DNA of 33,549 nt from positions 1 through 33,549 of the forward strand of contig JAMOPG010000203.1 of the NCBI GenBank assembly GCA_027064715.1. The letters run 5' to 3'. A program made the translations under genes and the position numbers. This document shows, piece by piece, positions 287 to 28,597 of the stretch. Source of the stretch: Desulfobacterales bacterium (lineage in GTDB: Bacteria > Desulfobacterota > Desulfovibrionia > Desulfovibrionales > Desulfothermaceae). Under the pieces are notes generated by a model. It had not been told where the DNA came from. It saw only the letters and a list, made by a program, of their open reading frames with translations, and did not search any database. The number at the start of each line of letters is the position of its first letter. The first letter of the stretch is position 1.

Positions 287-694
287 ATGGTTATGAAAAA
301 GTTGTTTGAGCCACATATAGAGCTTGTAAAATATGTAATGGATTTAAGATTGATACGTCAAAATATTGTCGCCAGTAATCTGGCAAATATAGAAAACCCC
401 AATTATAAGGCAAGGCGGATTGATTTTGAAGAGAAGTTACAAGCTGCTTTAAATTTAAAAGAATCTGGGGCTATGGCAAGGACCAATGAAAGACATCTGC
501 CAACTTCGGTTTTGGTAGAGCCAGATTTTTATAAAGAATTGGAGATCAGGGTTGTTCAAGGAGAGGACAGTGTAGATCTAGACAAAGAAATGACTATTCA
601 GGCCAAGAATGTATTGGCATACAAAACACTAAGTAATGTGCTTACAAAGGAATTTCAACTTCTAAAGGATGTTATTGTAGAAGGAGGGAAATAA
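287..694 (+). CDS. flgB: Flagellar basal-body rod protein FlgB
   Basis: 135 aa; N-terminal RLIRQNIVASNLANIENPNYKARRIDFEEKL is typical of FlgB; first gene of flgBC-fliE order. Start may be the ATG at 293. Confidence 0.95.
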   Translation: MVMKKLFEPHIELVKYVMDLRLIRQNIVASNLANIENPNYKARRIDFEEKLQAALNLKESGAMARTNERHLPTSVLVEPDFYKELEIRVVQGEDSVDLDKEMTIQAKNVLAYKTLSNVLTKEFQLLKDVIVEGGK

Positions 695-1137
695 TGGGTA
701 TAAATTTTATGACAGCCCTAGATATTGCTTCTTCTGGATTGTCTGCACAAAGGACACTTTTAAATGTAATATCTATGAATTTGGCAAATATAAACACAAC
801 AAGGACCCAAGAAGGCGGGCCTTATAGGAAAAAAGAGGTTATTTTTCAGTCAGCACCAATAAAGTGGCCGTCTGATAACCTCATGAGAACAGAGCTTGAA
901 AGACAGATTAAGGGAGTTAAAGTAAATAGGATAGTTGAAGATTATGATGGTGTGAGAAAGGTGTATGATCCAAATCATCCTGATGCAGATGAGGACGGGT
1001 ATGTTTCTTATCCTGATATCAATGTAGTGGAGGAAATGGCAAAAATGCTCACAGCTCTAAGAAGTTATGAGGCAAATTTATCAACAGTAACATCAATAAA
1101 GACTATGTTAAATAGTGCTCTTCAGATTGCTAGATAA
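694..1137 (+). CDS. flgC: Flagellar basal-body rod protein FlgC
   Basis: ALDIASSGLSAQRTLLNVISMNLANINTTRT...PYRKKEVIF and C-terminal YEANLSTVTSIKTMLNSALQI; start overlaps the flgB stop. Confidence 0.95.
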   Translation: MGINFMTALDIASSGLSAQRTLLNVISMNLANINTTRTQEGGPYRKKEVIFQSAPIKWPSDNLMRTELERQIKGVKVNRIVEDYDGVRKVYDPNHPDADEDGYVSYPDINVVEEMAKMLTALRSYEANLSTVTSIKTMLNSALQIAR

Positions 1138-1154
1138 AAGGTAAGGAGGAGGGT

Positions 1155-1457
1155 ATGAGCATTAAGTCAATAGCTAACAATGCATATCTAAATGCATTAA
1201 ATACAGAACCAAAAAGATATGCTACTTCTAAACCTAAAGAATCCTTTATGGAAACTATAGAAGAATCATTGAAAAAAGTAAATGATCTTCAGTTAGAAAA
1301 GGATCAAATGATTGAGGAATTTGCAGTAGGCAAAAATGAAAATGTGCATGAGTTAATGATTGCACTTCAAAAGGCAGATATTGCAATGAAACTTACTTCT
1401 GCTGTTAGAAATAAAGTTATGGAGGCATATAAGCAATTGATTAATATGCCTATGTAG
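1155..1457 (+). CDS. fliE: Flagellar hook-basal body complex protein FliE
   Basis: 100 aa; C-terminal HELMIALQKADIAMKLTSAVRNKVMEAYKQLINMPM is diagnostic of FliE. Confidence 0.95.
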   Translation: MSIKSIANNAYLNALNTEPKRYATSKPKESFMETIEESLKKVNDLQLEKDQMIEEFAVGKNENVHELMIALQKADIAMKLTSAVRNKVMEAYKQLINMPM

Positions 1458-1498
1458 CTTATTAAAAAATAAGTTAGCTATGTAGGAGGCTATTTTAA

Positions 1499-3088
1499 AT
1501 GGAAAATCCATTACCCAAGTGGAATCAAAAAATAAAAGATTTGTGGAGTAAAGGAACAACCCCACAAAAAATAATTGCAATTGGAGTAATGCTCTCAGTT
1601 ACCATTATGTTCATTTTTTTAATGGTGTGGTTAAATCAAGAAGAATATGGGGCATTATATTCAAATCTAAAACAGGAAGATTCTGCTGCTGTTGTAAAAT
1701 ATTTAAAAAAGCACAATATAAAATATAAACTGCAAGACAATGGTGGGACTATTTTGGTCCCTAAGGACAAGGTGTATGAGCTCAGATTAGAGATTGCAGG
1801 GCAAGATATATTAGAAAAAGGTGGTGTAGGTTTTGATATATTTTCAAAAAGCTCAATAGGACAAACGGATTTTGTGCAAAGAATCAACTATCAAAGGGCT
1901 CTTCAAGGTGAATTAGCAACTACTATTTCTGCAATACCTGAAATTATAGCTGCCAGGGTTCATTTGGTCCTTCCCAAAAAGTCTCTTTTTTTAGAAGAAC
2001 AGACTCCAGCGTCAGCCTCTATATTGGTCCAATTAAAAAGGGGAAAGGAACTAACAAAAGAACAGATAAAGAGCATAGTAAATCTAGTGGCAACAGCTGT
2101 AGAAGGGCTTTCGCCCGAAAATATCACTCTTATAGACAATAGGGGACGGCTGCTTTATCGATCTAAAAATGAAGGGGAAATGGCTTTAACAACAAGCCAG
2201 ATGGAATATAAATTAAATCTTGAACAGTCACTTACAAAAAAGATTGAGAGCTTACTATTTCCAGTAATTGGGGCAGGAAAGGTTATAGCTCAAGTGAATG
2301 TTGATCTTGATTTAAGTGAACAAAATATTTATAAAGAATTATATGATCCAGATTCATCTGTGGTAAGGAGTGAGCAGAGGGTAAAAGAGTCATCTAAGGG
2401 AACAGCACAGGCAGAGGCATCAAAAGCTGGGCCTCAGTATAAGGCACAGGGTGGAGGAACTACTACCACAGAAGAATCTTCCAGGATGCAGGAGACTATT
2501 AATTATGAAATCAGCAAACAGGAGCAAAGGGTACACATCCCCAAAGGTCAAATATCAAAAATTACAGTTGCTGTGCTTGTTGATGGGAAATATAAAAAAG
2601 GTAAAAATGGAAAACTCATATATGAACCAAGGTCAGATGTTGAATTGGAAAAGATAAAGGATATAGTGAAAAGTGCAGTGGGTTATGATCCAAAAAGGGG
2701 AGATGTAGTAGAGGTGGCCTCCATGCAATTTTCGCCAATAGAGCTTGCAGAGCCAAGTTTTTGGCAGGTAGTGTTAGATTATTTACATAAATTTATAAAA
2801 CCTATTTTAAATACACTAGTATTACTAATCTTTATCTTGTTTGTGCTGAGACCAGTGATACTCTCTATTGTAAAGCCTAAAGTAGAGGAAGAAGTTGCTG
2901 AGATAGAAGAACTACCAGAAGGAGAAGAAACTGAGGCTCCCCCACTGTCAGAAGAGGAGTTAAGAGCACTTGAGTCAAAAAGGCCCTTTGAAGAGATAAA
3001 GCAAAAGGTAGCTGCTATATTGGATAAATATCCAGAGGAGGCTATAGCAATAATTAAAGGTTGGGTAAGAGAAGAATCTAAAAGGTAA
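1499..3088 (+). CDS. fliF: Flagellar MS-ring protein FliF
   Basis: 529 aa; two TM regions, FDIFSKSSIGQTDFVQRINYQRALQGELATTI and RVHLVLPKKSLF motifs. Confidence 0.96.
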   Translation: MENPLPKWNQKIKDLWSKGTTPQKIIAIGVMLSVTIMFIFLMVWLNQEEYGALYSNLKQEDSAAVVKYLKKHNIKYKLQDNGGTILVPKDKVYELRLEIAGQDILEKGGVGFDIFSKSSIGQTDFVQRINYQRALQGELATTISAIPEIIAARVHLVLPKKSLFLEEQTPASASILVQLKRGKELTKEQIKSIVNLVATAVEGLSPENITLIDNRGRLLYRSKNEGEMALTTSQMEYKLNLEQSLTKKIESLLFPVIGAGKVIAQVNVDLDLSEQNIYKELYDPDSSVVRSEQRVKESSKGTAQAEASKAGPQYKAQGGGTTTTEESSRMQETINYEISKQEQRVHIPKGQISKITVAVLVDGKYKKGKNGKLIYEPRSDVELEKIKDIVKSAVGYDPKRGDVVEVASMQFSPIELAEPSFWQVVLDYLHKFIKPILNTLVLLIFILFVLRPVILSIVKPKVEEEVAEIEELPEGEETEAPPLSEEELRALESKRPFEEIKQKVAAILDKYPEEAIAIIKGWVREESKR

Positions 3089-3118
3089 CATGGTGGCAAA
3101 AAATAGAATCGAGGAAAA

Positions 3119-4138
3119 GTGATGCGTGAGATAAAGGATGTTAAAGAGCTTTCAGGAGTAGAGAAGACCGCTATCCTACTTTTGGCCCTTGGGGATAAAT
3201 ATGTACAGAAAATATTTAAGGAGTTAACAAGAGAAGAGATTGTGAAGGTCTCAAGAGCTATGGTGGATTTAGAAAAAATTCCTAAAGAAATTGTAGAACA
3301 GGTGTTAAGGGAGTTTCATGAGACCTTTATTTCAGGTTCTCATGTAATTGTTGGGGGGTCTGATCAGGCGAGAAAACTCTTGTCAAAGGCTTTAGATGGA
3401 AAAACCGTGGAAGAGATAATGAAAAATGTGGAATATGACTATAGACCTCCACCATTTAAAGGTCTTGAAAATTTCAGTCCTACAATTATGGCACAGATAC
3501 TTTCTAATGAGCATCCTCAAACTTTGGCCCTGATACTTGGATATCTTCCCTCTCAACAAGCAGCAGAGGTACTTAAAAATCTTCCCCCAGGGGTGAGGCC
3601 CGAGGTATTGCTTAGACTTGCAAAGTTGGAAACTGTACCACTTGAGATGTTATATGAAGTAGATTCAGTGCTTAGGGAACAGCTTGAAGCAATGGGTGGT
3701 GAAGGTCAAAAGGTTGGTGGTGTACAAGCTGTTGCTGAGATATTAAACTCTGTGGAAAGATCTGTTGAAGAGGAGGTACTTGCAGACATTGAGATGGAAT
3801 CTCCACAGCTAGCTGAAGAGATAAGAGAGTTGATGTTTGTATTTGAGGATATCAAAAATCTTGATGATCGCTCTATAAGAGAGATTTTAAAGGAAATATC
3901 CAATGAAGATTTAACACTTGCTCTAAAAGGTGCATCAGAGGAACTTAAACAAAAATTCTTCTCTAACTTATCAGAACGTGCAGCTGCTATGATTAAAGAA
4001 GACCTAGAGATTATGGGACCTGTCAGGATCTCAGATGTGGAAAAGGCTCAAAAGAACATTGTAAAGGTGGTGAGACAGCTCGAGGCTGAAGGCAGGATTG
4101 TGATAGCAGGAAAAGGAGGCGAGGATGTCCTTGTGTAA
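3119..4138 (+). CDS. fliG: Flagellar motor switch protein FliG
   Basis: 339 aa; LSGVEKTAILLLALGDKYVQKIFKEL, EHPQTLALILGYLPSQQAAEVLKNLP, C-terminal MGPVRISDVEKAQKNIVKVVRQLEAEGRIVI. Confidence 0.96.
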   Translation: MMREIKDVKELSGVEKTAILLLALGDKYVQKIFKELTREEIVKVSRAMVDLEKIPKEIVEQVLREFHETFISGSHVIVGGSDQARKLLSKALDGKTVEEIMKNVEYDYRPPPFKGLENFSPTIMAQILSNEHPQTLALILGYLPSQQAAEVLKNLPPGVRPEVLLRLAKLETVPLEMLYEVDSVLREQLEAMGGEGQKVGGVQAVAEILNSVERSVEEEVLADIEMESPQLAEEIRELMFVFEDIKNLDDRSIREILKEISNEDLTLALKGASEELKQKFFSNLSERAAAMIKEDLEIMGPVRISDVEKAQKNIVKVVRQLEAEGRIVIAGKGGEDVLV

Positions 4139-4853
4139 GGGACGAATCTTTTTGGGTAGTAGTGGTATTGTTGTAGATGAGGTAGAGTTTAGTAAAAAAC
4201 ATGTGGATACGGATTTATGGGATGAGAATATAGAAAAGAAGATTTTAGAAAAAATAAAAAATAAGGCATTTGAACAGGCAAGATCCATTGTTCAAGACGC
4301 ACAAAAACAGGCAATACAGATAAGAAATGATGCCTATGAACAGGGATATAAAGAAGGATATAAAAAGGGCATGGCCAAGGCTCATGAAGAGATTGAAAAG
4401 ATTAAAAAAGATACAGCTGCTAAATTAATTACAATAGTAAATAATATAGAGAATGAGAAGAAAAAAATCTTTGAAAAATATATTGATGAGATATTAAAGC
4501 TTATATTTATAAGTGTTGAAAAATTATCAGATATTGTATTTGTTGAACAAAAAAAGGCAGTTATAAAGGATATATTAGAAGATTGTCTTCAAGAAATAGA
4601 TAACTCTTCACAGGTAAAGATATTTGTAAATGAACAAGACTATCCATTAATAAAAGAGATTATTGAGGAAATAAAGTGTAATTATCCAGATATAAAAAAG
4701 TGGGACATAAGTGTAAAACAAGGTCTAAGTAGTGGTTCTGTGCAAATAGATACAGGGACATCAATGGTTGAAGATGCCTTTTTAAAAAGAAAAGAAAAAC
4801 TGATGGAGATTATAAAGAATATATCATTAGAAGAAGAGTATGAAGATAAGTGA
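4125..4853 (+). CDS. fliH: Flagellar assembly protein FliH
   Basis: 242 aa, position between fliG and fliI, coiled-coil with AYEQGYKEGYKKGMAKAHEE and typical C-terminal IDTGTSMVEDAF. Confidence 0.85.
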   Translation: MSLCKGRIFLGSSGIVVDEVEFSKKHVDTDLWDENIEKKILEKIKNKAFEQARSIVQDAQKQAIQIRNDAYEQGYKEGYKKGMAKAHEEIEKIKKDTAAKLITIVNNIENEKKKIFEKYIDEILKLIFISVEKLSDIVFVEQKKAVIKDILEDCLQEIDNSSQVKIFVNEQDYPLIKEIIEEIKCNYPDIKKWDISVKQGLSSGSVQIDTGTSMVEDAFLKRKEKLMEIIKNISLEEEYEDK

Positions 4854-6144
4854 GGCAATAGAAAATATATCAAAGTTACGTACTGTGGCCCAGTATGGTG
4901 TTGTTAGTAAGGTTGTGGGTCTTATAGTTGAGTGTAAAGGGCTGAGAACTTCTATTGGCTCAGTTTGTGAGATATTAATAGATGAGAAAAAAAAGATTTT
5001 GGCAGAAGTAGTTGGTTTTAGAGATTCCACTGTACTCCTTATGCCTTATGGGGATCTGTTTGGAATAAAGACAGGGGCTAGAGTCAAAAATTTGAATTTG
5101 CCTCCAGTAATTGGTGTGGGCAGTGGTCTTTTGGGGAGGGTTGTGGATAGTTTTGCAAGGCCCATAGATAATAAAGGGCCTGTCAAATATTCCTCTTTTT
5201 ATCCTCTATATGCAGAACCATTGAATCCTTTACTGAGAAGAAGAATTAGCGAGCCACTGGATGTTGGTATTAGGGCAATAAATGGACTTTTGACTCTGGG
5301 AAAGGGGCAGAGAATAGGTATAATGGCTGGCTCTGGGGTGGGAAAATCAACTCTTCTTGGTATGATCGCCAAATATACCACAGCAGATGTAAATGTCATA
5401 TGTCTGGTTGGTGAAAGGGGAAGGGAGGTCAATGAATTTATAGAGGATTCTCTTGGAGAACAAGGGCTCAAAAAGTCAGTGGTGGTGGTTGCTACTTCTG
5501 ACCAATCTCCACTCTTGAGAATGCGGGCTGCTTATACAGCTCAGACTATTGCAGAATATTTTAGGGATCAGTCAATGGATGTGTTACTTATGATGGATTC
5601 TATTACCAGGTTTGCAATGGCCTCCAGAGAGATTGGTTTGTCTGTTGGAGAACCTCCAACTTCAAAAGGCTATACTCCATCAGTTTTTTCACAACTGCCA
5701 AAACTACTAGAAAGGGCTGGGACATCAGATAAAGGCACTATTACAGGTATTTATACTGTCTTGGTAGAAGGGGATGACTTTACAGAACCAATAGCAGATG
5801 CTGTTAGATCTATTGTGGATGGACACATTGTACTCACCAGAGAACTTGCTGATATGGGGCACTATCCTGCAATAGATGTACTAAAAAGTGTTAGTAGATT
5901 AAGAAACCAAGTGATTGATAAAGAAAAGTTATCCCTTGGCAATAAATTATTATCTACTCTTGCTACTTATAAAAGAGTAGAAGATATGATAAATATTGGA
6001 GCATATCAAAAAGGATCAAATAAAGAGATTGATTTTGCTATTGAGAAAATAAATGAAATAAATAAATATTTAGTTCAAGAAATAGAAGAAAAGGCCTCCC
6101 TTGAAGATTCATTTTCCAGACTTAAAAAGATATTTATCCAATAG
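4840..6144 (+). CDS. fliI: Flagellum-specific export ATPase FliI
   Basis: 434 aa; Walker A GIMAGSGVGKSTLLGMIAK, LVGERGREVNEFI, DSITRFAMASREIGLSVGEPPTSKGYTPSVF. Confidence 0.96.
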   Translation: MKISEAIENISKLRTVAQYGVVSKVVGLIVECKGLRTSIGSVCEILIDEKKKILAEVVGFRDSTVLLMPYGDLFGIKTGARVKNLNLPPVIGVGSGLLGRVVDSFARPIDNKGPVKYSSFYPLYAEPLNPLLRRRISEPLDVGIRAINGLLTLGKGQRIGIMAGSGVGKSTLLGMIAKYTTADVNVICLVGERGREVNEFIEDSLGEQGLKKSVVVVATSDQSPLLRMRAAYTAQTIAEYFRDQSMDVLLMMDSITRFAMASREIGLSVGEPPTSKGYTPSVFSQLPKLLERAGTSDKGTITGIYTVLVEGDDFTEPIADAVRSIVDGHIVLTRELADMGHYPAIDVLKSVSRLRNQVIDKEKLSLGNKLLSTLATYKRVEDMINIGAYQKGSNKEIDFAIEKINEINKYLVQEIEEKASLEDSFSRLKKIFIQ

Positions 6145-16264: not shown

Positions 16265-17194
16265 ATGAATAAATTGAGGATAGCAACCAGGGGAAGTAAA
16301 TTGGCACTTTGGCAGGCCTATTTTATAGGAGATAAGATAAAAGAAAAATATCCTGAGATAGATATAGAATACAAAATAATTAAGACATCAGGAGATAAGA
16401 TATTGGATGTGCCTCTTGCCAAGATAGGTGGTAAGGGGCTCTTTGTTAAAGAGATTGAAGAGGCCTTAATTCGGGGAGATGCTGATATTGCTGTTCATTC
16501 TATGAAGGATGTCCCTTCTATATTACCTGATAAATTGGAAGTGGGGATTATTACAGAGAGGGAAGAACCTGTAGATGTCTTTTTATCAGAAACATATAAA
16601 GATATCCATGAACTCCCTGAAGGTGCAAAAATTGGCACAAGTAGTTTAAGAAGGCAGGCACAGATAAAGCGTATTAGGCAAGATTTAAAGATTGAGGTGT
16701 TAAGGGGAAATTTAGATACCAGATTAAATAAGTTAAAAAAAGGAATGTATGATGCTATAGTGGTTGCCAAGGCGGGTCTAAAGCGTTTGGGCCTGTCTGC
16801 CCAATATTCATGGGAACTTATTCCTCCTAAATTTATTCCAGCAGTGGGGCAGGGTGCACTGGGTATTGAATACAGAAAGGATAGAGAAGATATAAAAGAT
16901 CTTATTTCATTTTTAGATCATTTTGAGACAAAGGTCTGCGTGATAGCTGAAAGGTCCTTTCTTTTTAAGCTGGAAGGTGGATGTCAGGTCCCAATAGGTG
17001 CATATGCTTTTGTTAAAGATAATCACATTGTGCTCACTGGATTTGTCTCTGATTTAGATGGAAAAAAGTTTATTTTAAGGGAAAAAATGGGAAAGTTAAG
17101 TGATGCAAAAAATATAGGATTAGATCTTGCACAAGAAATATTAGATCTGGGGGGAAGACAGATATTAGAGGAAGTTTATAATGAAACAAAATAG
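16265..17194 (+). CDS. hemC: Hydroxymethylbilane synthase (porphobilinogen deaminase)
   Basis: 309 aa; LRIATRGSKLALWQA, KDVPSILP, GTSSLRRQAQIKRIRQDL, LRGNLDTRLNKL, EGGCQVPIGAYA. Confidence 0.97.
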   Translation: MNKLRIATRGSKLALWQAYFIGDKIKEKYPEIDIEYKIIKTSGDKILDVPLAKIGGKGLFVKEIEEALIRGDADIAVHSMKDVPSILPDKLEVGIITEREEPVDVFLSETYKDIHELPEGAKIGTSSLRRQAQIKRIRQDLKIEVLRGNLDTRLNKLKKGMYDAIVVAKAGLKRLGLSAQYSWELIPPKFIPAVGQGALGIEYRKDREDIKDLISFLDHFETKVCVIAERSFLFKLEGGCQVPIGAYAFVKDNHIVLTGFVSDLDGKKFILREKMGKLSDAKNIGLDLAQEILDLGGRQILEEVYNETK

Positions 17195-17206
17195 GTGGGA
17201 GAAAAA

Positions 17207-18712
17207 ATGTTAAAAAGAATAATTTTATTCGTTGTATATATTCTATTTTTTAATAGTATACTTCTTTATGGAGGTGATGATAATTTTATGAAGCAGGTAA
17301 TGGAAAAAGTACATACATTTAAATTAGAAAATGGCATGCAATTTGTTGTGATGCAACGGGAAAAGACACCAGTTGTGAGTTTTGTTACATTTGTAAAAGT
17401 GGGAAGCGTTGATGAAGATATTGGACATACTGGTATAGCGCATATTTTTGAGCATATGGCATTTAAAGGTACAAAGGATATAGGGACAAAGGATTGGAAA
17501 AAAGAGAAGGTGGTATTGGAAGAATTAGATAATGTTTACAGAAAATATATAAGATGTGTAAATGAAGATAAATCAAGTGATAGATGCAAGTTGTTAAAGA
17601 ATAAATTTAACAGATTATTGGAACAGGCAGATTCTTATGTTATACCAAATGAATTTTCAAAGATTATAGAAAAAAATGGGGGAGAAGATTTAAATGCAGC
17701 CACTTCTACAGATTATACAATATATTATTGTTCCTTTCCATCAAATAAGGTGGAGCTCTGGTTTTCCCTTGAGTCTGATAGGCTAAAAAATCCTGTTTTT
17801 AGAGAATTTTATACAGAAAAAGAGGTGATTAGGGAAGAACGAAGGATGAGGATAGATACATCCCCAATGGGCAAATTGATAGAGGGTTTTAGGTCAATAG
17901 CATTTTCCGCACATCCATATTCTCACCCAACCATTGGCTGGGATTCTGACATTATAAATACAACTATTAAAGATGTGGAAGAGTTTTATAAAAAATATTA
18001 TGTGCCTCAAAATATTACCATTGCAATAGTAGGAGATGTGGACATTGAAGAGATTAAAAAATTTGCTCAAATATACTTTGGTTCCATTGAAAAAGGAGAT
18101 GAACCTCCAATTGTTTATACAAAGGAGCCAAAACAAAATGCCAAAAAAGGGATAACCATTTTTGGTAATGCGCAGCCAATATATGTTCGTGGATATCATG
18201 TCCCAGGATATGGGGATAAGGATTATGTTGTATTAAGGGTGCTTGAAGATATCCTGAGTGAAGGAAGAAGCTCAAGGCTATATTCACACCTTGTGCTTGA
18301 GAAAAAGCTGGCCCTTTCAGTTTCTGCTTTTTATGGATTTCCTGGGGAGAGATATCCTTGTTTGTTTGGTGTGCTCGCTATTCCAAATATGGGGGTTAGT
18401 GTTGATAAATTGTCAAAGGCAATTGATGATGAACTAAATGATATATTAAAAAATGGAGTAAAAAAAGATGAGATCCAAAGGGCTTATACCTTAGAGAAGG
18501 CAGAACTTGTGAGACAAATGGAATCAAATCTAGGAATGGCCAGAGAATTGGCATATGCCCAGGCAATTTATGGAGATTGGAAAAACATATTTTTTATTGT
18601 GGAAGAATTTAAGAATGTGAGTTCTAATGATATTCAACACGTTATAAGGAAATATTTTAAGCAAGATAATATGGTTGAGGGAAAATTAATTCCAACTAAT
18701 AACAAAAATTAA
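17207..18712 (+). CDS. Zinc-dependent M16 family peptidase, catalytic-type subunit, with signal peptide
   Basis: HIFEHMAFKGT contains HxxEH; typical M16 fold segments. Track start is GTG at 17195; ATG at 17207 gives a clean signal peptide. Confidence 0.92.
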   Translation: MLKRIILFVVYILFFNSILLYGGDDNFMKQVMEKVHTFKLENGMQFVVMQREKTPVVSFVTFVKVGSVDEDIGHTGIAHIFEHMAFKGTKDIGTKDWKKEKVVLEELDNVYRKYIRCVNEDKSSDRCKLLKNKFNRLLEQADSYVIPNEFSKIIEKNGGEDLNAATSTDYTIYYCSFPSNKVELWFSLESDRLKNPVFREFYTEKEVIREERRMRIDTSPMGKLIEGFRSIAFSAHPYSHPTIGWDSDIINTTIKDVEEFYKKYYVPQNITIAIVGDVDIEEIKKFAQIYFGSIEKGDEPPIVYTKEPKQNAKKGITIFGNAQPIYVRGYHVPGYGDKDYVVLRVLEDILSEGRSSRLYSHLVLEKKLALSVSAFYGFPGERYPCLFGVLAIPNMGVSVDKLSKAIDDELNDILKNGVKKDEIQRAYTLEKAELVRQMESNLGMARELAYAQAIYGDWKNIFFIVEEFKNVSSNDIQHVIRKYFKQDNMVEGKLIPTNNKN

Positions 18713-18726
18713 AAAAGGTAAAGAAA

Positions 18727-20130
18727 ATGAAAAGGATGGTGTTATTTATGGTATTAATGGCTCTTGGCAGTTGTGCAACATATGCTCCCAAAAAATACAA
18801 TGAGCTAAAATTTGACAAAGATATCTCCTGGCCTAATTATAAGATACACAGCTTTGTGTCTAAAAACAAGATAAAATTTTTTGTAATAGAGGACAGTGAA
18901 CTACCCTTAATCAGGATTCAGATGTATGTAAAAGGTGGAAGAAGTGTGGTGCCCTCTGGAAAAGAGGGACTGGATTTTATCCTTGCACAAATGATCTTAA
19001 ATGGTGGAACCAAAAAATATCCAGAAGAGCAGTTTAACGTATTTTTAGAAGATAGGGCAGTGGAATTTTATATAGACTTTGATTTTTTAAATGCGGTTGT
19101 AAACATTGATCTTTTGTCAAAGGACTTTTATGAGGTCATGCCTGTTATTTTGGACTCACTTGCACATCCAAATTTTACAAAAGAGAATTTTGAGTTAGCC
19201 AAAAAAAGATTAAAAAGTATAATTGCCAGGAGAAATGACAATCAGGAGGAGATTGGTCACAGGGAATTTAAAAGAATAGTCTATGGAAAAGATTCCATTT
19301 ATGGCCGCATCCCTACTTATGAAAGTGTGGATAATATAACAATGCAGGATGTTTTAGATTTTCACAAAAGATTGTTTGTGGGATCTAATCTGCTTGTTGG
19401 AATAGTTGGAGATTTACAAGTTAAGGATATAAAAAATCGGGTTTTGGACCTGTTTTCACTTTTTCCAAAGGGTCAAGAGGTAGTTTTTGATTTTCCTGAA
19501 CCACCTTATAATGGTGGGGAAAAATTTATAGTTGATTCAAAAGATTCAAATCAAGCCTTTATTATTTTAGGACATTTGGGAGATTATAGATTAAATCCAG
19601 ATTATGGTGCTTTGCAAGTGATGAATATGGTTTTAAGTGGTGGATTTTCTGGAAGGCTTTTTGAAAATATTAGGACAAGAAAAGGACTTGCTTATTCTGT
19701 TTATAGCCATTTTGGATGTGAGAGATATTTTCCAGGCATATTTTTTGTGGCCTTAAAGACTAAAAATAGCTCAGTAACAGATGCCATTTTGGCAGTTATA
19801 GATGAGCTTAAAAAGATCAAGGAACATGGATGTAGTGCAAAAGAAGTAGAAGATGCTAAAGAACAATTTTTGAACTCCATTGTGTTTAGATATGATTCAC
19901 CTAGAAAGGTTATGGAGAGAAGGCTATATTATGAGTTGAGAGATATGGATCCCAACTCTTTTCTAAAGTTAATTGATGACATAAAAAAGGTAAGTGAAAA
20001 TGACGTATCCAGGGTTGCAAAAAAATATTTGGATGTGGACAAATTGGACATTTTAGTGGTAGGAGATAAGAAACAATTGGAAAACGAACTTAAAGGTCTG
20101 GGAAATTGGAGAGAGTGGGAGTTAGATTAA
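18727..20130 (+). CDS. M16 family peptidase-like protein, non-catalytic-type subunit, probable lipoprotein
   Basis: 467 aa; lipobox-like LGSC near the N-terminus; M16 features (VLSGGFSGRLFENIRTRKGLAYSVYSHFG) but HxxEH position reads DFILAQ. Confidence 0.88.
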   Translation: MKRMVLFMVLMALGSCATYAPKKYNELKFDKDISWPNYKIHSFVSKNKIKFFVIEDSELPLIRIQMYVKGGRSVVPSGKEGLDFILAQMILNGGTKKYPEEQFNVFLEDRAVEFYIDFDFLNAVVNIDLLSKDFYEVMPVILDSLAHPNFTKENFELAKKRLKSIIARRNDNQEEIGHREFKRIVYGKDSIYGRIPTYESVDNITMQDVLDFHKRLFVGSNLLVGIVGDLQVKDIKNRVLDLFSLFPKGQEVVFDFPEPPYNGGEKFIVDSKDSNQAFIILGHLGDYRLNPDYGALQVMNMVLSGGFSGRLFENIRTRKGLAYSVYSHFGCERYFPGIFFVALKTKNSSVTDAILAVIDELKKIKEHGCSAKEVEDAKEQFLNSIVFRYDSPRKVMERRLYYELRDMDPNSFLKLIDDIKKVSENDVSRVAKKYLDVDKLDILVVGDKKQLENELKGLGNWREWELD

Positions 20131-20157
20131 AAAGTAAAAACATAGGAGGGAATAATT

Positions 20158-21420
20158 ATGCATCATACAGAAGAAGCATATAAAAGACTTTTGGAGATTG
20201 GTCGTCCCCCAAACATCAAAAGGCTTTTTCCAAATTCAAAGGCACTTATAGTAAGTGGTAAGGTCATTGACAGGGCAATGCTTAAAAAAGGGAAGGCAAT
20301 GACCATTGCTGCAAATGGGAGAAATTATTTTGTGATAAGGGGGGCTCTGTTAGCTGCGCAACGTGCAAATGCTGCTATAATTTTAGAGATAGCCAAGTCT
20401 GAATCCACATATTGTGCTACTAATTTCTGGAATTTGGCAAGAAGGGTTGATGCACTGTGTAATGAGCTCAATATCACTGTTCCAGTGGCAATTCACGCAG
20501 ATCATTTTACAATAAAAAACAAAGATGACATAGAAAAGGCCAGAAAACAGATTCCATCAATGTTTGATTTTGGTATAACTTCAATTGCCATTGACGCATC
20601 TCATATGCCTGATAGGGATAACTTACTTGCAAATATTGAACTCGCTCAATATATCCCAAAATGGGCAGGATATGAGACAGAGGTTGGAGAGATAAAAGGA
20701 AAAGAGGGATTATCTACCCCAGAAGAGGCCCTATTCTTAATCAGGGGCTTAAATGCCCATTCCATATTCCCAGATTGGATTGCCTTAAATAATGGAACTA
20801 CGCACGGTATACAGGATTCAGAGGCAGGAATCCAGGTAGATTTAACTGCAAAGATACATAAGGCACTGGAACCTTATAAGGTATCAGGTGCCCAGCATGG
20901 CACATCTGGAAATAGCACTCAAAGATTAAAAGAGATAGCTGAAAAGACTCGCACCACAAAGGCAAATGTGGCAACAGCGCTTCAGATGCTCACCTGGGGT
21001 GTAAAGGTAAATGAATATGGAAATGCTGAGCTAGATGAAAATGGCGAATTTATAAAAGAGAAAGACAAGGGTGTAAGTGAAGAGCTGTGGAGGGAGATGG
21101 TGGAATATGCCAAGAAAAATGGTTTAAAAGGTGGAAATTACAAAAAGCTAAACCTTCCTTTTGAAACTGCCCTGTTATCTGAACCAAAGGAAATTAGGGA
21201 GAGAATGACTAAGGCAGTGGAAGAATTTGTATATGATTTAATTGTAAATGTCTTTAATGCAGAAGATACAGCTGATATAGCAAAAGAGATTATTGCCAAA
21301 GCAAATTCCTATGACCTCGGTCCAAAGGCAGAAAAAATTGAAGATGAAAAAGAGTGGAGTATTGAAAAGATAAAGGCAATGGAAGCCAATGTTAAAGATA
21401 GTGGAGATTATGATGATTAG
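20158..21420 (+). CDS. Class II fructose-bisphosphate aldolase family protein (long, divergent)
   Basis: 420 aa; IHADHF, VGEIKGKEG, WIALNNGTTHG, VSGAQHGTSGNS resemble class II aldolase metal/substrate motifs. Confidence 0.8.
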   Translation: MHHTEEAYKRLLEIGRPPNIKRLFPNSKALIVSGKVIDRAMLKKGKAMTIAANGRNYFVIRGALLAAQRANAAIILEIAKSESTYCATNFWNLARRVDALCNELNITVPVAIHADHFTIKNKDDIEKARKQIPSMFDFGITSIAIDASHMPDRDNLLANIELAQYIPKWAGYETEVGEIKGKEGLSTPEEALFLIRGLNAHSIFPDWIALNNGTTHGIQDSEAGIQVDLTAKIHKALEPYKVSGAQHGTSGNSTQRLKEIAEKTRTTKANVATALQMLTWGVKVNEYGNAELDENGEFIKEKDKGVSEELWREMVEYAKKNGLKGGNYKKLNLPFETALLSEPKEIRERMTKAVEEFVYDLIVNVFNAEDTADIAKEIIAKANSYDLGPKAEKIEDEKEWSIEKIKAMEANVKDSGDYDD

Positions 21421-21440
21421 TTGTTGAATAATAAAAAGAT

Positions 21441-21475
21441 AAAGAAGGGAGCAACATTCGTTGCTCCCTTCTTTT
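21441..21475 (+). terminator. Rho-independent terminator downstream of the aldolase gene
   Basis: AAAGAAGGGAGCAAC-ATTC-GTTGCTCCCTTCTTTT; perfect 15-bp stem. Confidence 0.93.
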
Positions 21476-21740
21476 GTTGATGGGTTGTTGTTAGGAAAAA
21501 TCCCAAGTAAATGTCTTTAAAAAATAGTGTATAGATCATGCGGCGGCATATATAACCTCCATATGAGAGAGCATTTCATTATTTGTGTATAATGTTATAG
21601 CCTCTTATTTTAAGTTGTTATATGTGCGACTTCTTGTCTTTCAATCTATCTGTATTTTGTATATGATTTTGAAACAAATTTTGGTAGGACAAAATTAAGA
21701 AGTGTAGATTTCTGAATAAAAAATGATTGGGTTTTAAAAT

Positions 21741-21780
21741 AAAGACCCTCTTTTCTTATTAATAAGAAAAGAGGGTCTTT
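21741..21780. terminator. Perfect 40-nt palindrome acting as terminator for the minus-strand cytochrome gene
   Basis: AAAGACCCTCTTTTCTTATT|AATAAGAAAAGAGGGTCTTT; immediately 3' of the minus-strand stop at 21801. Confidence 0.88.
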
Positions 21781-21800
21781 TACTACAGATAAAAATGTTT

Positions 21801-23060
21801 TTACTTTTGTTTATTCATTATATTTTTTCTCATCTGTTCTGCCAGATGTTTCATTTCAACAAGGGTTTCTTTCATCTTTGCATAGCCATACCAGGTTGTA
21901 TAATCAGGATTCATATGAAATGCTGCCTGGAAGGTCTTCATACGATAGTCCATGAACATTTCATAGAGTTTTTCTTCAATAGGTGTATTAACTTCATAAA
22001 ATGTTAAAAGATCTGGATAAGGCCAAGTTGCCATATTGGTTTTCTTTGGAATAATACCGTCTTTATAAAGCCCTTCTACCAGCTCAATTGCTTCAGCAAA
22101 GATCTTATCAGCAGCCTTAATCATTTGGTCTGCATTTTTTAGATTATTCTCTGCAAAATTGGCAGAATGGCATTTTTCACACCTCTTTAACATCTTAGTT
22201 CTTTCAGCCTTAAAACTAGCTTCATCTAGCCTTGCCATATTTGCCTTTTTTACGAGATCAAGTCTCGGTGTAGGTTTTCCATCTTTGTCTAATACTCCAA
22301 GCGCCTTTAAAATTGTAATCCTATAATCTAGCCACTCTTTATCTTTTTCAGGTAACCTTAGGGCCAAAAATCCCCATCCAGTCATTACCCTGTGATTACC
22401 ATCTGGCATATGACAATCCTGACATGTAGGGCCCCTATGGGATTTTCTATCAGTAAGATAAGCTATTCCGTGTCTGGAATGTGACCAGAATTCCCACTGG
22501 GCATGATCAAATCCAGTATGACAACTTGCGCATGTTTCAGGTTCTTTTGCCTCTTTTACAGAAAAGGCATGTCTTGTGTGGCAGTTTTGACAATCCATGC
22601 CATATTTATAATATTTTCTGAATTCATTGTTTCTTACCTGGTTGTCTGTGATTCCAAGATTGTGACAACCATTACATCCTTTTTGGCCAGCAATAAATGC
22701 TTTTGGTTGCTTGTGGGCAAAATCTGGAAAAGCTGTAATAGGCAAAAGACCTAAGGCATGCTTTCCACTCATATACTGTTTTACTTGTGTTCTGTGGCAT
22801 CTCTTACAAGTTGAAATAGTAGGTAACAGGGCTTTATCAGCATCTGCAGCACATTTATGAGCACTGCCATGGCATGTAGCACAATTTAATCCAGCTTTAG
22901 ACATCTTGCTTTTGTGAAAATCTTTGACGATTCCTGGTGAAATTTTTGCATGGCACGATTCACAATCTTTAACATTTTTTGCAAAACCTTGGGCAGAACA
23001 TAAAAATAAAATTGCAAAACAAATTGCTTCTGAAAGGATTAAAAAGTTTTTGTTTTTCAT
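21801..23060 (-). CDS. Octaheme c-type cytochrome of the hydroxylamine oxidoreductase (HAO)-like family, exported
   Basis: Signal peptide plus eight CxxCH motifs (CESCH, CATCH, CKRCH, CNGCH, CQNCH, CASCH, CQDCH, CEKCH); HSRHG and C-terminal MDYRMKTFQAAFHMNPDYTTWYGYAKM are HAO-like. Confidence 0.85.
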   Translation of the reverse strand: MKNKNFLILSEAICFAILFLCSAQGFAKNVKDCESCHAKISPGIVKDFHKSKMSKAGLNCATCHGSAHKCAADADKALLPTISTCKRCHRTQVKQYMSGKHALGLLPITAFPDFAHKQPKAFIAGQKGCNGCHNLGITDNQVRNNEFRKYYKYGMDCQNCHTRHAFSVKEAKEPETCASCHTGFDHAQWEFWSHSRHGIAYLTDRKSHRGPTCQDCHMPDGNHRVMTGWGFLALRLPEKDKEWLDYRITILKALGVLDKDGKPTPRLDLVKKANMARLDEASFKAERTKMLKRCEKCHSANFAENNLKNADQMIKAADKIFAEAIELVEGLYKDGIIPKKTNMATWPYPDLLTFYEVNTPIEEKLYEMFMDYRMKTFQAAFHMNPDYTTWYGYAKMKETLVEMKHLAEQMRKNIMNKQK

Positions 23061-23111
23061 AACATTCCTCCTATTTTTTAACTTTTGTCCTTACCTTATA
23101 ATTTTTTAAGA

Positions 23112-23141
23112 ATTATATAAAACAACTATTATTATAGTCAA
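23112..23141 (-). promoter_or_regulatory. Candidate housekeeping promoter of the octaheme cytochrome gene
   Basis: Minus strand TTGACT-18 nt-TATAAT about 50-80 nt upstream of the start codon. Confidence 0.5.
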
Positions 23142-23448
23142 CTGAGGATAAGGCTGTGCAAAAGGATCTTTTGATCAGGCTTTAGTTATAAAAAAAACGG
23201 GGAAGAACAACCTATTCTAATTTATAAGACCATACATAAGCAATATCATTAGATCTCAAAATGTCCTCAATGGGTGGAGGAAAATCATGAGCTCTAATAA
23301 CATAAAAAGAAGTTTTCAGGCTCTATCCATATCCAATTATAAAACAGGGCCAACAAGAGAGTGTCGCAGGAAAGTCAACTTGTAAAAGATATAAAATTTA
23401 TACACAAAATAATTGACACAATCCATCATTTTTATAAAAAATCAGCAC

Positions 23449-23655
23449 ATGAAGTTAGAAATAACACCTATACAATTACTTTTGGTTGGTATAGGTATGG
23501 CGTTTTTGATAGAGGGGATGATATATTTTTTATTTCCCTCTAGTATAAAAAATATGTTAGAACATATAAAAGAGATGTCTCCGTTAGTTTTGAGAAATTT
23601 GGGTTTTTTAGCGATGATTACAGGACTTATTATAGTGTATATGGTGATTAAGTAA
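23449..23655 (+). CDS. Small membrane protein, DUF2065-like
   Basis: MKLEITPIQLLLVGIGMAFLIEGMIYFLFPSSIKNMLEHIKEMSPLVLRNLGFLAMITGLIIVYMVIK; two TM segments and IEGxxYFLFP pattern. ATG at 23449 preferred over track start 23413. Confidence 0.75.
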   Translation: MKLEITPIQLLLVGIGMAFLIEGMIYFLFPSSIKNMLEHIKEMSPLVLRNLGFLAMITGLIIVYMVIK

Positions 23656-23658
23656 GAA

Positions 23659-24303
23659 CTACTGCAGTATCTTTGCCACATCTTTAATATATGAAGAGAT
23701 GGCCTCTATATCATCCACCTCTTCTGTTTTAAAAGCAATACCGAAACCCACTTTATCTTGTTTTGAAAAAATACGTTTTATAATTGAAGGTATGGAAAGT
23801 GCTTTATCAATATTGGGCAAGTTAAATTCCACAATCACTTCCTCTCCTGTTTTCAGTTTTTTTGAGTTTTCAGGATCATCAATAACAAATGCACATCCAC
23901 CAACACTTATATCCACAATTACTCCATCGTATTTTTGCTTTTTTCCCTTATCAAAGATCTTTGCAGGGAGCAAAGAGCTTATCCTATCAGCTTTACGAAG
24001 ATTCATAACATCAAATTTTTCAGGCTCTGCAAGAAAAATAATCTCAATGGGCCTAAATTGATAATGCACAACCTGAGTATTTCCTGAATAAATCTTTCCA
24101 TCTGCAAGAAAAATTACAGTTACATATGGTTTATTTATCAATATTTGTTTAATATTGGAGTTTAAATGAGTAGTTGTTAACATAAATCTCTCTCTTACCC
24201 AACCGATATATTTAACTTTTAGTCTTGTTTTTAAATGAGGAATCTCTATTAATACATTGTCTCCAGGATGCAATTTATTCAATATATTATAATTGTCAAA
24301 CAT
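23659..24303 (-). CDS. PilZ-domain c-di-GMP-binding protein (YcgR/flagellar-brake-like architecture)
   Basis: 214 aa; RKADR (RxxxR) followed by DISVGG ([DN]xSxxG), with an N-terminal beta-domain (LHPGDNVLIEIPHLK). Confidence 0.85.
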   Translation of the reverse strand: MFDNYNILNKLHPGDNVLIEIPHLKTRLKVKYIGWVRERFMLTTTHLNSNIKQILINKPYVTVIFLADGKIYSGNTQVVHYQFRPIEIIFLAEPEKFDVMNLRKADRISSLLPAKIFDKGKKQKYDGVIVDISVGGCAFVIDDPENSKKLKTGEEVIVEFNLPNIDKALSIPSIIKRIFSKQDKVGFGIAFKTEEVDDIEAISSYIKDVAKILQ

Positions 24304-24305
24304 AA

Positions 24306-25022
24306 CTATTTCCTCGCTTTATGCAAATAAACTATCCCATAAGTCAAAGGATAATAATTTACATCAGAAAAACCCGAATGTAAAAGTTCTTGTTTTAATT
24401 GAAAAGAGCTGGGAAATTTTAATATAGAGTCTCTTAAATAGGTATAAGCTTTTTTGTTTCTAGAGACCTTATTTCCAATAAAGGGAAGTATAGAAGAGAG
24501 ATAAAGATTATAAAGGCCAAACATGATCTTTTTTTTGGGAGGAGAAAATTCCAATATCAAAAAAGTTCCACCTGGTTTTAACACCCTTAGCACTTCTCTA
24601 TATAACTCTTTTCTAGGACTGACATTCCTTATACCAAATGCAATGGTGACCACATCTATGGAAGATGTTTTTATTGGTATTTTTTTTCCATTTGCACAAA
24701 TAGCTAATTTGGAATCTATTTTTTTGGTTTTTTTAAGTCCTGCTCTGAGCATTTCATAAGAGAGATCTAAACCAATAAGTATAGGCTTTGACTGATAAAA
24801 CCGCTTTGCCAGATAGATTATTACATCCATGGTCCCTGTGGCCAGATCTAAAAAAACAGGTCTTTTTATGCCCTGAATGTTCTCTATACTTTCAATTAAT
24901 TTTTTTCTCCAATATATATCAATTCCAAAACTAAGAAAGTGATTTAAGAAATCATACCATGGCGAGATCTTTGAAAACATTGATGCAATTTGTTTGTCTT
25001 GAAACTTACTCATTCTTTTCAT
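24306..25022 (-). CDS. ubiE: Demethylmenaquinone/2-polyprenyl benzoquinol methyltransferase
   Basis: 238 aa; FSKISPWYDFLNHFLSFGIDIYWRKKLI, FLDLATGTMDVIIYLAKR, AFGIRNVSPRKELYREVLRVLKPGGTFLILEFS. Confidence 0.94.
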   Translation of the reverse strand: MKRMSKFQDKQIASMFSKISPWYDFLNHFLSFGIDIYWRKKLIESIENIQGIKRPVFLDLATGTMDVIIYLAKRFYQSKPILIGLDLSYEMLRAGLKKTKKIDSKLAICANGKKIPIKTSSIDVVTIAFGIRNVSPRKELYREVLRVLKPGGTFLILEFSPPKKKIMFGLYNLYLSSILPFIGNKVSRNKKAYTYLRDSILKFPSSFQLKQELLHSGFSDVNYYPLTYGIVYLHKARK

Positions 25023-25194
25023 TTAATTCATTGTTATAAAGTGGATCCTCTGATATGGTCTTATACACCTCATTGTAGATAGGGGCAAAAAATTGGTGGA
25101 AATTTGTGGGCGAAATTCTGCCTATTTCAATAAATTTAACAATTATCTCTTTTGTCACCTGTATGGCCATTTTTTTTATTGCATCTTGTTTCAT
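25006..25194 (-). CDS. Small conserved-type hypothetical protein, overlapping and likely co-transcribed with ubiE
   Basis: 62 aa; ALQVTKEIIVKFIE-like core (VTKEIIVKFIEIGRISPTNFHQFF); 17-nt overlap with the downstream ubiE start. Confidence 0.6.
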   Translation of the reverse strand: MKQDAIKKMAIQVTKEIIVKFIEIGRISPTNFHQFFAPIYNEVYKTISEDPLYNNELNEKNE

Positions 25195-25239
25195 GGATCA
25201 TCTCCAACTAAAAAAAACTGTTTAAAAAGTTATAAAAAA

Positions 25240-25290
25240 GTCCGGAAGGGGGAAATGGTCTGGCCCACTAACCAGTATCACTTCCGGACT
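25240..25290 (-). terminator. Terminator-like hairpin with large structured apical region
   Basis: Minus strand AGTCCGGAAG...(31 nt)...CTTCCGGACTTTTTTA; 10-bp perfect outer stem plus U-tract. Confidence 0.75.
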
Positions 25291-25332
25291 AAAAAAGAGG
25301 AGAAACCCTCTAAGGCACCCCCTCTTTTTTAT
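25291..25332 (-). terminator. First terminator hairpin immediately after the acidic protein gene
   Basis: Minus strand AAAAAAGAGGGG...CTCCTCTTTTTT arms right after the stop codon. Confidence 0.55.
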
Positions 25333-26303
25333 TCTTCTTCCTCTTTTAGTTCTTCTTCCATTGCCTCTATTTCTTCCCTAATAATCTTTGCAGCTTCTTT
25401 GGGAATCAATACATTTATCTCTTGTCTTAGATCGTCTCTTAAGCCATCAACAACTTCTTTTAAATGTCCTTTTAGCACTTTTTCCCAATTATTAATCTTT
25501 TCACTAAGACCCATTAGCTCACTTTTTATTAAATCCTTAAATTTTTCAATCTCATGCTTTAGGTTATCTATATCTTTTTGAAAAGAAGGTTCATCCACAG
25601 ACGCATGCTTTTGATTTTGGACTTCTGCTAAAATCAACTCTAATTTATTGTTTAATTTTTCTTCAACTGATTTTATCTTTGGATCTATTATTTCTGTTAT
25701 ATGTTGTTTTAAGGTGCCTAATAATTGTTCATTATCAGCAAATGTCTCCTTCGCTGTGGCTTCATTTGCTTTAGCTTCAGTTTCTTCTATAGATTCTGTG
25801 TCTAGTTTTTCATCTGGGGCTTCTGGAATATCTTGATCAGCAATAGTCTTTTCTTCTTCTGTCTTTACTAACTCTTCATCACTGTCTTTATCCTCTTGAT
25901 TTTCCTCAAATAAAGAATCAATTTCATCCTGATTGATTTGTTGAGAATCTACCCCTGACTCTTCATCATCTATATTTAAGTCCTTATCAAGTTTATCAAA
26001 TATAGAGTCTATGTCCAAATCATCTTTTTTTTCTTGTTCAGACTGATACTCTGATGTTTCTGTTTCTTCTGGTTCTTCATCCAGTAAAGTATCTAGTTCA
26101 TCATCTAAAGAGGCCTCTTTATCAGAGCCCTCTTTTTTATCTGTTTTGTCGCTATTTGTCTGTTGTTCATCCCCTTCTAATAATGCATCTAATTCTTTTT
26201 CTAGATCATCAAACTCACTTTCCTCCCCTGATTCTGATTTCTTTTCCCCAGGCTCTTCTACCACTTCTGTTAATTCAATAACCTCTTCATCTTTTTTTGA
26301 CAT
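25329..26303 (-). CDS. Highly acidic, low-complexity/coiled-coil protein with repeated (E/D)(I/L)D(S/A/T)(L/I)(L/F) motifs; function unknown
   Basis: MSKKDEEVIELTEVVEEPGEKK... about 324 aa from ATG at 26303 (track start 26336); Asp/Glu-rich N-terminal half and heptad-like C-terminal half; no signal peptide. Confidence 0.85.
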   Translation of the reverse strand: MSKKDEEVIELTEVVEEPGEKKSESGEESEFDDLEKELDALLEGDEQQTNSDKTDKKEGSDKEASLDDELDTLLDEEPEETETSEYQSEQEKKDDLDIDSIFDKLDKDLNIDDEESGVDSQQINQDEIDSLFEENQEDKDSDEELVKTEEEKTIADQDIPEAPDEKLDTESIEETEAKANEATAKETFADNEQLLGTLKQHITEIIDPKIKSVEEKLNNKLELILAEVQNQKHASVDEPSFQKDIDNLKHEIEKFKDLIKSELMGLSEKINNWEKVLKGHLKEVVDGLRDDLRQEINVLIPKEAAKIIREEIEAMEEELKEEEE

Positions 26304-26339
26304 AAAATTAACTCCATAAAAGTGTAATGGGTACACCGA

Positions 26340-26753
26340 TTATTTTTTATGACACCCTTTGCAACTCAATGGACCAGTGGGTTTATTCTTTACTTTGTTT
26401 TTTGCATGACAGCTGAGGCAACTATGTACACTTTTTTTATCATGAAAGGCAAAATAGGCAGATTTTTTGTTCATCATTTGCGGTCCTTTAGCATTAATTA
26501 AATCATGGCATCCTGAGGACGTGCATTTTAAAGGTGCTTTGGTTTTATCAGTCCACTTATGATGACATGTCTCACAGGGTATTTTCTCATGTTTTTTGTG
26601 TGGCATTATAACAGGTGTGTAAAGGGGATTTTTGGTTTTGCCCAGCGAATCTTTCATTTCAATTTCTTCAGGGGGTTCAATTGCCATAGATCCCACAATT
26701 GCAATGCCAAATAGGAGACACCCTAAAAATACTAGAACTTTTGCTGCTTTCAT
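26340..26753 (-). CDS. Class III tetraheme cytochrome c3-like protein, exported
   Basis: Signal peptide; heme motifs CETCH(H), CTSSGCH (CX4CH), CLSCH, CKGCH; Lys-rich mature part as in cytochrome c3. Confidence 0.9.
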   Translation of the reverse strand: MKAAKVLVFLGCLLFGIAIVGSMAIEPPEEIEMKDSLGKTKNPLYTPVIMPHKKHEKIPCETCHHKWTDKTKAPLKCTSSGCHDLINAKGPQMMNKKSAYFAFHDKKSVHSCLSCHAKNKVKNKPTGPLSCKGCHKK

Positions 26754-26804
26754 TCTTACCTCCTTTTTTAATTTTTTACTTACAAAAATGTCAAGCTTCC
26801 TTTT

Positions 26805-28076
26805 TTATAAGTTGATCCTTTGTACACTATCAATAATCTTGTCCATGTCTTTTAAATCATGGGCAAAGGATGTAAACATGCATTCAAAATTAGAAGGAGG
26901 GATAAAGATTTTTGAGTTTCGCATATGAACAAAAAAATGTGAAAATCTGTTAGTATCAGTTGTTTTTGCATCCTCAAAGTTTTTGATTTTATCTTTTTCT
27001 GTAAAAAATATTGTAAAGGCTGAACCAAACTGATTAATTCTTACTGGGATACTTTTTTCCTTAAAAATGTTATTAAGTTCTTTTACCAAATTGTGAGTAT
27101 AATCTTCAAGATTTTTGTAGTCCTGGTTTTTTAAGATTTTTAATGTAGCAATCCCTGCTGCCATAGCCACAGGATTTCCAGAAAGGGTTCCTGCTTGATA
27201 TATATCTCCAGTAGGGGCTAGATGTTCCATTATCTCTCTTTTTCCACCAAATGCGCCTACTGGAAACCCACCTCCTATTATTTTTCCTAAACAGGTTATA
27301 TCAGGCTCTATTCCAAATATGTTTTGAACTCCACCATAACAGAATCTAAAACCAGTAATAACTTCATCAAAGATGAGAAGGGAGCCATACTTTGAAGTTA
27401 TCTCCCTTAATCCTTTTAAGAAATCCTTTTTTGGTAGAACTAACCCCATGTTTCCAGCAATGGGTTCAACAATTACCCCTGCAATATCCTCTCCATGTTT
27501 TTCAAAGATTTCTTTCACACCATCTATATTATTGAATTCTGCTAACAGAGTATGTTGAACAATTTGTTCAGGAACCCCTGGGGTTCCAGGAATGGAATAT
27601 GTAGCAACCCCTGATCCAGCCTGAGCGAGCAAATGATCCACATGGCCGTGGTAACATCCAATAAATTTAACAATTTTTTCTCTTTTTGTATAACCCCTTG
27701 CAAGCCTTATTGCGCTCATTGTAGCTTCTGTTCCAGAATTCACCATTCTTACCATTTCAATGCTTGGGATAGCATCTGTTATTAGCTCGGCCATTTCTAT
27801 TTCCCAAGGAGTTGGAGCACCAAAACTTGAGCCCAGTTCCAATGCCTGTTTTGCAGCCTTTACTACTTCAGGGTGTGCATGACCTAAAATCAACGGACCC
27901 CATGAGAGCACAAGGTCTATATATTCATCTCCATCAACTGAATAAATCTTGCTTCCTTTGCCTTTTTTAATAAAAAGTGGATCACATCCAACACTTTTGC
28001 ACGCCCTAACTGGGCTGTTAACACCCCCTGGTATTATTTTTTTTGCCTTGTTGTATAACTGGTTTGACCGCTCCAT
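26805..28076 (-). CDS. hemL: Glutamate-1-semialdehyde 2,1-aminomutase
   Basis: 423 aa; [62 protein letters not shown]. Confidence 0.97.
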
Positions 28077-28114
28077 TTTTATTATCTCCTTAAACTGTTC
28101 TAGAAAAAATAAAA

Positions 28115-28597
28115 TTAAAAATATTTCATTGAAGTCTTTTTTAATTCTTCATCACTAAAAAGCATTTCATATTCAGTAAAATGTGTTAACTCTTTAATTT
28201 TATTTACAATAGACAAACAATCTTGTTTGCACCTTCCATGTATCATGGTGTATAAATTATAAGGCCAAGAGGGGTGAGTTTTTCTTACATAACAATGAGA
28301 TATCTCGGGTACTTGGGTAATAATGTCTGCAATATGATCAATTTTTTCCTCAGGCTCAACCTTCCAGGCAACCATCACATTACACTCGTATCCAGCAATT
28401 TGATGTTTTAGTGTAGCCCCAAACCTTCTGATTATTCCCTCTTTTTTGAGATTATTTAAAAAAGAAATTACCTTTTGCTCTGTAGTACCTACCTTTTTGG
28501 CTATTTCAAAAAATGGCATTGGACTATCTGGAATATTTTCTTGTACTATTTTTAGAATTTCAATTTCTACTTTGGTAAACTCAAGGTGATGGCTCAT
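28115..28597 (-). CDS. ahbB: Siroheme decarboxylase subunit (AhbA/AhbB, Lrp/AsnC-like), probably AhbB
   Basis: 160 aa; [24 protein letters not shown] and [14 protein letters not shown]; directly upstream of hemL on the same strand. Confidence 0.8.

Follow-up and report, generated by a model that had tools for sequence, protein, structure and literature searches.

Why does an acidic protein carry, within its linker, four copies of a helix resembling the one that FliM carries once, at its N-terminus? The window in which this question arises is the whole stretch of DNA that was analysed, 33,549 nucleotides from a Desulfobacterales bacterium assigned by GTDB to the Desulfovibrionales (assembly GCA_027064715.1, contig JAMOPG010000203.1). 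An earlier note on this DNA regarded the four-motif protein as a possible scaffold for response-regulator receiver domains. That first reading is partly supported; the probable relation of the C-terminus of the protein to PopZ was missed. The explanation favored here, with a probability of roughly 0.55, is a self-assembling scaffold of PopZ-like type, with FliM-like docking helices that its flexible region acquired in the Desulfovibrionales.

All four FliM-like motifs are present in a single reading frame on the minus strand, as originally described. The interval first given for them, 25902-26213, contains the motifs but is limited to the motif-bearing part of a gene that extends over 25329-26303 on the minus strand (Table 1); starting instead from a GTG at 26336, further upstream, would lengthen the product by 11 amino acids. 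The protein, which begins with MSKKDEEVIELTEVVEEPG and is referred to here as the scaffold protein after its putative role, consists of 33% aspartate and glutamate over the whole ORF, and its orthologs display the same layout. Searches of Pfam and NCBIfam give no match above the cut-off. Baculo_PEP_C, Prominin, and Enterotoxin_b are weak Pfam matches that appear to be chance matches to the coiled coil, and the family profile, when searched against PDB sequences, returns coiled-coil noise only. AlphaFold (14 sequences) predicts short helices at residues 27-43, 66-74, 98-109, and 125-134, matching the four motifs, which are separated by low-confidence linkers and followed by two long helices that reach the C-terminus. 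The block-mean pLDDT of the long helices is mostly 80-92, dropping where the helical region begins and at the break that divides it; the model as a whole has a mean pLDDT of 65 and a pTM of 0.30, and its use is restricted to local secondary structure. The linker is acidic, of low pLDDT, and contains few prolines. Such an architecture is compatible with the scaffold role proposed at the outset.

Table 1. Coordinates of the putative scaffold gene, its sequence elements, and its immediate neighbors in the window
Feature	Position	Strand	Remarks
Conserved 62-aa gene, possible partner (VTKEIIVKFIEIGRISPTNF...)	25006..25194	-	Directly downstream; same neighbor in most Desulfovibrionales loci inspected
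Acidic scaffold gene	25329..26303	-	324 aa; ATG start at 26303
Two long predicted helices, coiled coil	25335..25808	-	Residues 166-230 and 238-323; AlphaFold
C-terminal PopZ-H3H4-like helical segment	25347..25454	-	Residues 284-319; end is LRDDLRQEINVLIPKEAAKIIREEIEAMEEEL
Helical motif 4, NQDEIDSLFEE	25902..25934	-	Residues 124-134; nearest to FliM
Helical motif 3, LDIDSIFDKLDKDL	25977..26018	-	Residues 96-109; AlphaFold helix
Helical motif 2, LDDELDTLL	26082..26108	-	Residues 66-74; AlphaFold helix
Helical motif 1, DLEKELDALL	26178..26207	-	Residues 33-42; AlphaFold helix
N-terminal linear motif EEVIELTEVVEE	26253..26288	-	Residues 6-17; conserved in the order
Tetraheme cytochrome c3-type gene	26340..26753	-	Directly upstream; Pfam PF02085, E 4.8e-19; conserved neighbor

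The pattern [DE][LIV][DE]x[LI][LFI] matches four times in residues 18-190, compared with a mean of 0.067 in composition-shuffled sequences and no shuffle out of 20,000 that reached four, a test that is post hoc because the motifs were chosen from the same sequence. Much less affected by this choice is a comparison of the window protein with two same-genus orthologs (37% overall identity), in which invariant residues make up 31 of the 44 motif positions (70%) but 11 of the 129 positions (8.5%) in the surrounding acidic sequence (Fisher P = 5e-15). The alignment of orthologs, suggested earlier as a check, thus reveals conserved motifs on a fast-evolving acidic background. Throughout the Desulfovibrionales, 50 orthologs harbor 100 EIDALL-type motifs where 9.6 are expected, although such counts are non-independent in related proteins. 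The number of copies varies from 0 to 5, with variants such as ELEDLF, DLDDLF, and EIDQIF, and motif 1 is the best-conserved copy across the order (FExELEDLF and the like). The array of four is conserved within the source genus and is a feature of that genus; most orthologs contain one to three motifs, and a few members outside the genus have four or five.

The two ends of the protein are conserved more widely. In a survey of 150 Desulfovibrionales genomes with a 45-position C-terminal profile, the C-terminus of the scaffold protein is found in 138, nearly always in single copy; the nearest named relatives belong to Desulfohalobiaceae bacteria and Desulfothermus okinawensis, within the same order. 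The conserved C-terminal helix follows the pattern P-x-x-AA-x-(I/V)-(I/V)-REEI-x-A(L/M), also written LIPxxAAxIIREEIxAL. The second conserved end is an N-terminal ELTEVVEE-type motif. The IELTEVVEE segment, which had been put forward as a second linear motif, is real and conserved: its tight pattern is present in 14 of 25 Desulfovibrionales proteins, in 7 of 23 of the valS-linked proteins described below, and in none of 2,950 unrelated ORFs. The ortholog in the record of Desulfothermus okinawensis (L006, L013, L023; G001:C10:63773-64490) has its N-terminus and its middle in separate frames, and its C-terminus is absent from the frame, which suggests a frameshift or an assembly error.

Relatives of the scaffold protein occur beyond the order. 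A phylum-wide search with a full-length profile yields mostly coiled-coil matches, and its short N-terminal matches led to a family of valS-linked proteins elsewhere in Desulfobacterota that are acidic and share the same two ends. The first five relatives examined all lie immediately upstream of valS. A second sample, drawn from valS itself, comprises 28 loci from other Desulfobacterota genomes with usable upstream sequence, of which 14 to 18 have a gene of this kind immediately before valS in the same orientation; the lower count is defined by a leave-one-out E < 0.01 or by independent discovery (L081), and the higher one includes weaker matches. The PopZ-like ending in this sample was first judged by eye and then scored with profiles that omit each protein and its near relatives. 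In the source genome, the neighbor of valS is divergent and unrelated, with no scaffold gene directly upstream.

Some of the valS-linked relatives are fused to a receiver domain (L082, E 1.3e-24; L091, E 5e-20; L095, E 7.5e-11; L079, E 2.7e-4). Like the window protein, the receiver-scaffold proteins (L079, L082, L085, L091, and L095) contain an acidic linker and a C-terminal segment of the same kind, and valS-linked members, including some of these, harbor an ELTDVVEEG-type motif. They differ in their N-terminal receiver, in their position next to valS, and in having few EIDALL-type motifs, which are near chance among the valS-linked relatives (4 versus 1.1 expected). The fusions provide an indirect link between the scaffold and receivers. 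Two valS-linked members (L049:4507-5469 and L081:698-1471) apparently have the C-terminal segment repeated in tandem, which would raise the valency of oligomerization. At the contig end of L050 (7078-9085), tandem YPRGRGGS / IPAGAGEA reading frames are typical of a CRISPR-like repeat array.

Candidate clients of the motifs are suggested by their likeness to FliM. Motif 4 (INQDEIDSLF) is close to the N-terminus of the FliM encoded elsewhere in the same genome, MSKILNQEEVDALLKGL (ILNQEEVDALL), in agreement with the resemblance first noticed for the last motif, and it retains the QDEIDxLF signature of FliM. The scaffold protein shares with the CheY-binding segment of FliM an EIDALL-type amphipathic helix, in four copies that are predicted as helices by AlphaFold, and lacks the FliM middle domain and SpoA domain of Pfam. 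The N-terminal segment of FliM binds CheY (PMC6946799), PopZ of Caulobacter binds the response regulator CpdR (PMC11519897), a canonical stand-alone CheY is encoded in the genome at G000:C218:2775-3113, and the relatives carry receivers in cis. Together with the FliM-like helices, these observations make receivers plausible clients and, by analogy, the docking of CheY on the motifs plausible. A role confined to flagellar CheY is doubtful, since five of seven family members from genomes without FliM retain one or two motifs (one of the seven read by eye). Motif number is lower in the absence of FliM (rank test P 0.02; 6 FliM-less versus 44 FliM-bearing genomes, with no phylogenetic correction), an association that is too weak to decide the matter. 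A connection with motility had been suggested from two features that are indeed present in the window, a PilZ gene at 23659-24303 and, at 694-6141, a flagellar operon (rod/FlgC-like, FliE, FliF, FliG, FliH, and FliI), but the operon lies ∼20 kb away and constitutes weak evidence.

The MinD-like ATPase FlhG is a candidate partner equal to the receivers because it also contacts FliM through the N-terminus of FliM (PMC12826062). The genome encodes FlhF and FlhG as well as ParA, all named by eye from their sequences, with FlhG at G000:C142:39150-39632. HubP and other polar landmarks recruit ParA-like ATPases. A polar scaffold on which the EIDALL-type helices dock FlhG or ParA instead of receivers, and thereby place flagella or chromosomes, is a client-specific version of the favored explanation, with which its confidence overlaps; it is considered unlikely, though the best of the alternatives. 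The interaction of FlhG with FliM and the ATPases present in the genome are in its favor, as is the distribution of the family, which is absent from 5 of 12 FliM-less genomes versus 7 of 138 FliM-bearing ones (Fisher P 8e-4), a comparison confounded by small or reduced genomes and by a diverged genus in which the C-terminus scores close to the threshold. The motifs that persist in FliM-less members argue against it, and the fusions found in the relatives favor receivers.

The proposed relationship to PopZ is based on the C-terminal segment and on gene order. An HMM built solely from the C-termini of valS-linked Desulfobacterota proteins was run on 9,669 ORFs from the fetched loci. Following its own members, it ranks all four PopZ ORFs from alphaproteobacterial plasmids (best E 0.002) ahead of all unrelated ORFs, and likewise 27 Desulfovibrionales ORFs, with the first unrelated ORF at E 2.5; both counts overstate independence, as the four PopZ ORFs derive from three genera, two of them from one genus, and some of the 27 are the same gene fetched repeatedly. 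The window protein itself scores 7.8 bits (E 1.8), and the link is carried by a same-genus ortholog at E 6e-4. None of ten column-shuffled profiles reproduces the ranking of PopZ and Desulfovibrionales ORFs. Three PopZ ORFs enter the top 30 of a reversed profile, at E values around 1 or higher; helix composition therefore accounts for some of the HMM signal. The Caulobacter PopZ sequence, verified against PDB 6xry for residues 1-134, is absent from the best 90 matches of the HMM. Pfam PF10691 (PopZ, DUF2497) matches neither the window protein nor anything else in its genome; DUF2497 is the best Pfam match for the C-termini of three relatives at 16-17 bits, below the 27-bit cut-off.

PopZ and the scaffold protein have in common an acidic disordered linker, a short N-terminal docking region, and a C-terminal helical segment in which a conserved proline precedes a REEIE-type helix. 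In Caulobacter and Agrobacterium (PMC5686542), as in the Sinorhizobium and Shinella loci, popZ is found upstream of valS, the same position as that of the relatives of the scaffold gene, and Caulobacter PopZ contains DDEVLELTDPI, the VLELTD segment of which resembles the N-terminal motif. Differences are evident as well. Helix H1 of PopZ (MEEILASIRRI type) is absent from the window protein and from all aligned orthologs, the linker is proline-poor in place of the proline-rich linker of PopZ, a long coiled coil precedes the C-terminus, FliM-like helices occupy the linker, and the gene neighborhood in Desulfovibrionales is another one. The scaffold protein is, as judged from sequence, probably a PopZ-like distant homolog of PopZ. 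It is not filed as a true PopZ because H1, the proline-rich linker, and the valS linkage are lacking and the score falls below the Pfam cut-off.

Convergence of amphipathic helices offers another account of the similarity. The protein would then be a scaffold that binds receivers but has no kinship with PopZ, acting as a multivalent hub or sink for CheY and ending in an ordinary coiled coil. The closeness of motif 4 to the FliM N-terminus in a genome that encodes CheY agrees with this account, as do the short and weak PopZ similarity of the window protein itself and the PopZ ORFs caught by the reversed profile. Convergence leaves unexplained why the genes of the relatives sit beside valS, however, and the C-terminus is conserved far beyond a generic coiled coil; the ELTEVVEE motif, which formed no part of the profile, is common to both groups. 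An origin unrelated to PopZ is judged improbable, even more so than docking confined to ATPases. Equally improbable are motifs that serve as generic helix-forming acidic stretches, or stickers, tuning self-association with no dedicated client, as the wide variation in copy number and exact sequence across the order might suggest, given the specific motif residues that are invariant within the genus and the FliM signature kept by motif 4.

The favored PopZ-like scaffold with FliM-like docking helices would represent, within Desulfovibrionales, a family of PopZ-like scaffolds that are acidic and for the most part disordered. In PopZ, repulsion within an acidic linker counterbalances a helical oligomerization domain (PMC9512792); by analogy, the C-terminus of the scaffold protein would drive assembly while its linker displays docking sites. 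The C-terminal helices may oligomerize to form an assembly in the cytoplasm; if PopZ is a guide, this assembly would most likely be a polar microdomain. The acidic linker would hold this assembly open and expose the FliM EIDALL-type amphipathic helices as multivalent docking sites, for which the most likely clients are receiver domains (CheY and other response regulators) or FlhG. The N-terminal ELTEVVEE motif may represent a separate, older docking element.

PopZ has been stated to occur only in alphaproteobacteria (PMC9512792), and a literature search for PopZ in sulfate reducers found no report. A broader proposal, held tentatively and at somewhat less than even odds, is that PopZ is not an alphaproteobacterial invention: a valS-linked PopZ-type scaffold, often fused to a receiver, would be widespread in Desulfobacterota, and the Desulfovibrionales gene, located instead in a haem/quinone cluster, would have acquired FliM-like helices to which receivers or ParA-like ATPases are recruited. 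If true, the origin of the condensate-forming scaffold PopZ moves further back, sulfate reducers acquire a candidate cell-pole organizer, and a flagellar docking motif reused in tandem on a scaffold is provided by nature. These implications would follow from a conserved protein that is near-universal in Desulfovibrionales, with relatives that occupy, in other Desulfobacterota, the place popZ has beside valS.

The gene neighborhood in related loci has a recurrent order consisting of hemL, the tetraheme cytochrome c3-type gene, the scaffold gene, the 62-aa gene, and ubiE/menG. Haem, quinone, and cytochrome genes surround the scaffold gene in the window (16265-28597), namely those for porphobilinogen deaminase, a multihaem cytochrome, ubiE, the cytochrome c3-type protein, hemL, and the siroheme decarboxylase AhbB. 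The 62-aa gene sits between the scaffold gene and ubiE, and its product is possibly a partner of the scaffold protein; single homologs of it show marginal matches to ROS/MUCR (E 0.2) and DUF2680 (E 7.5e-4).
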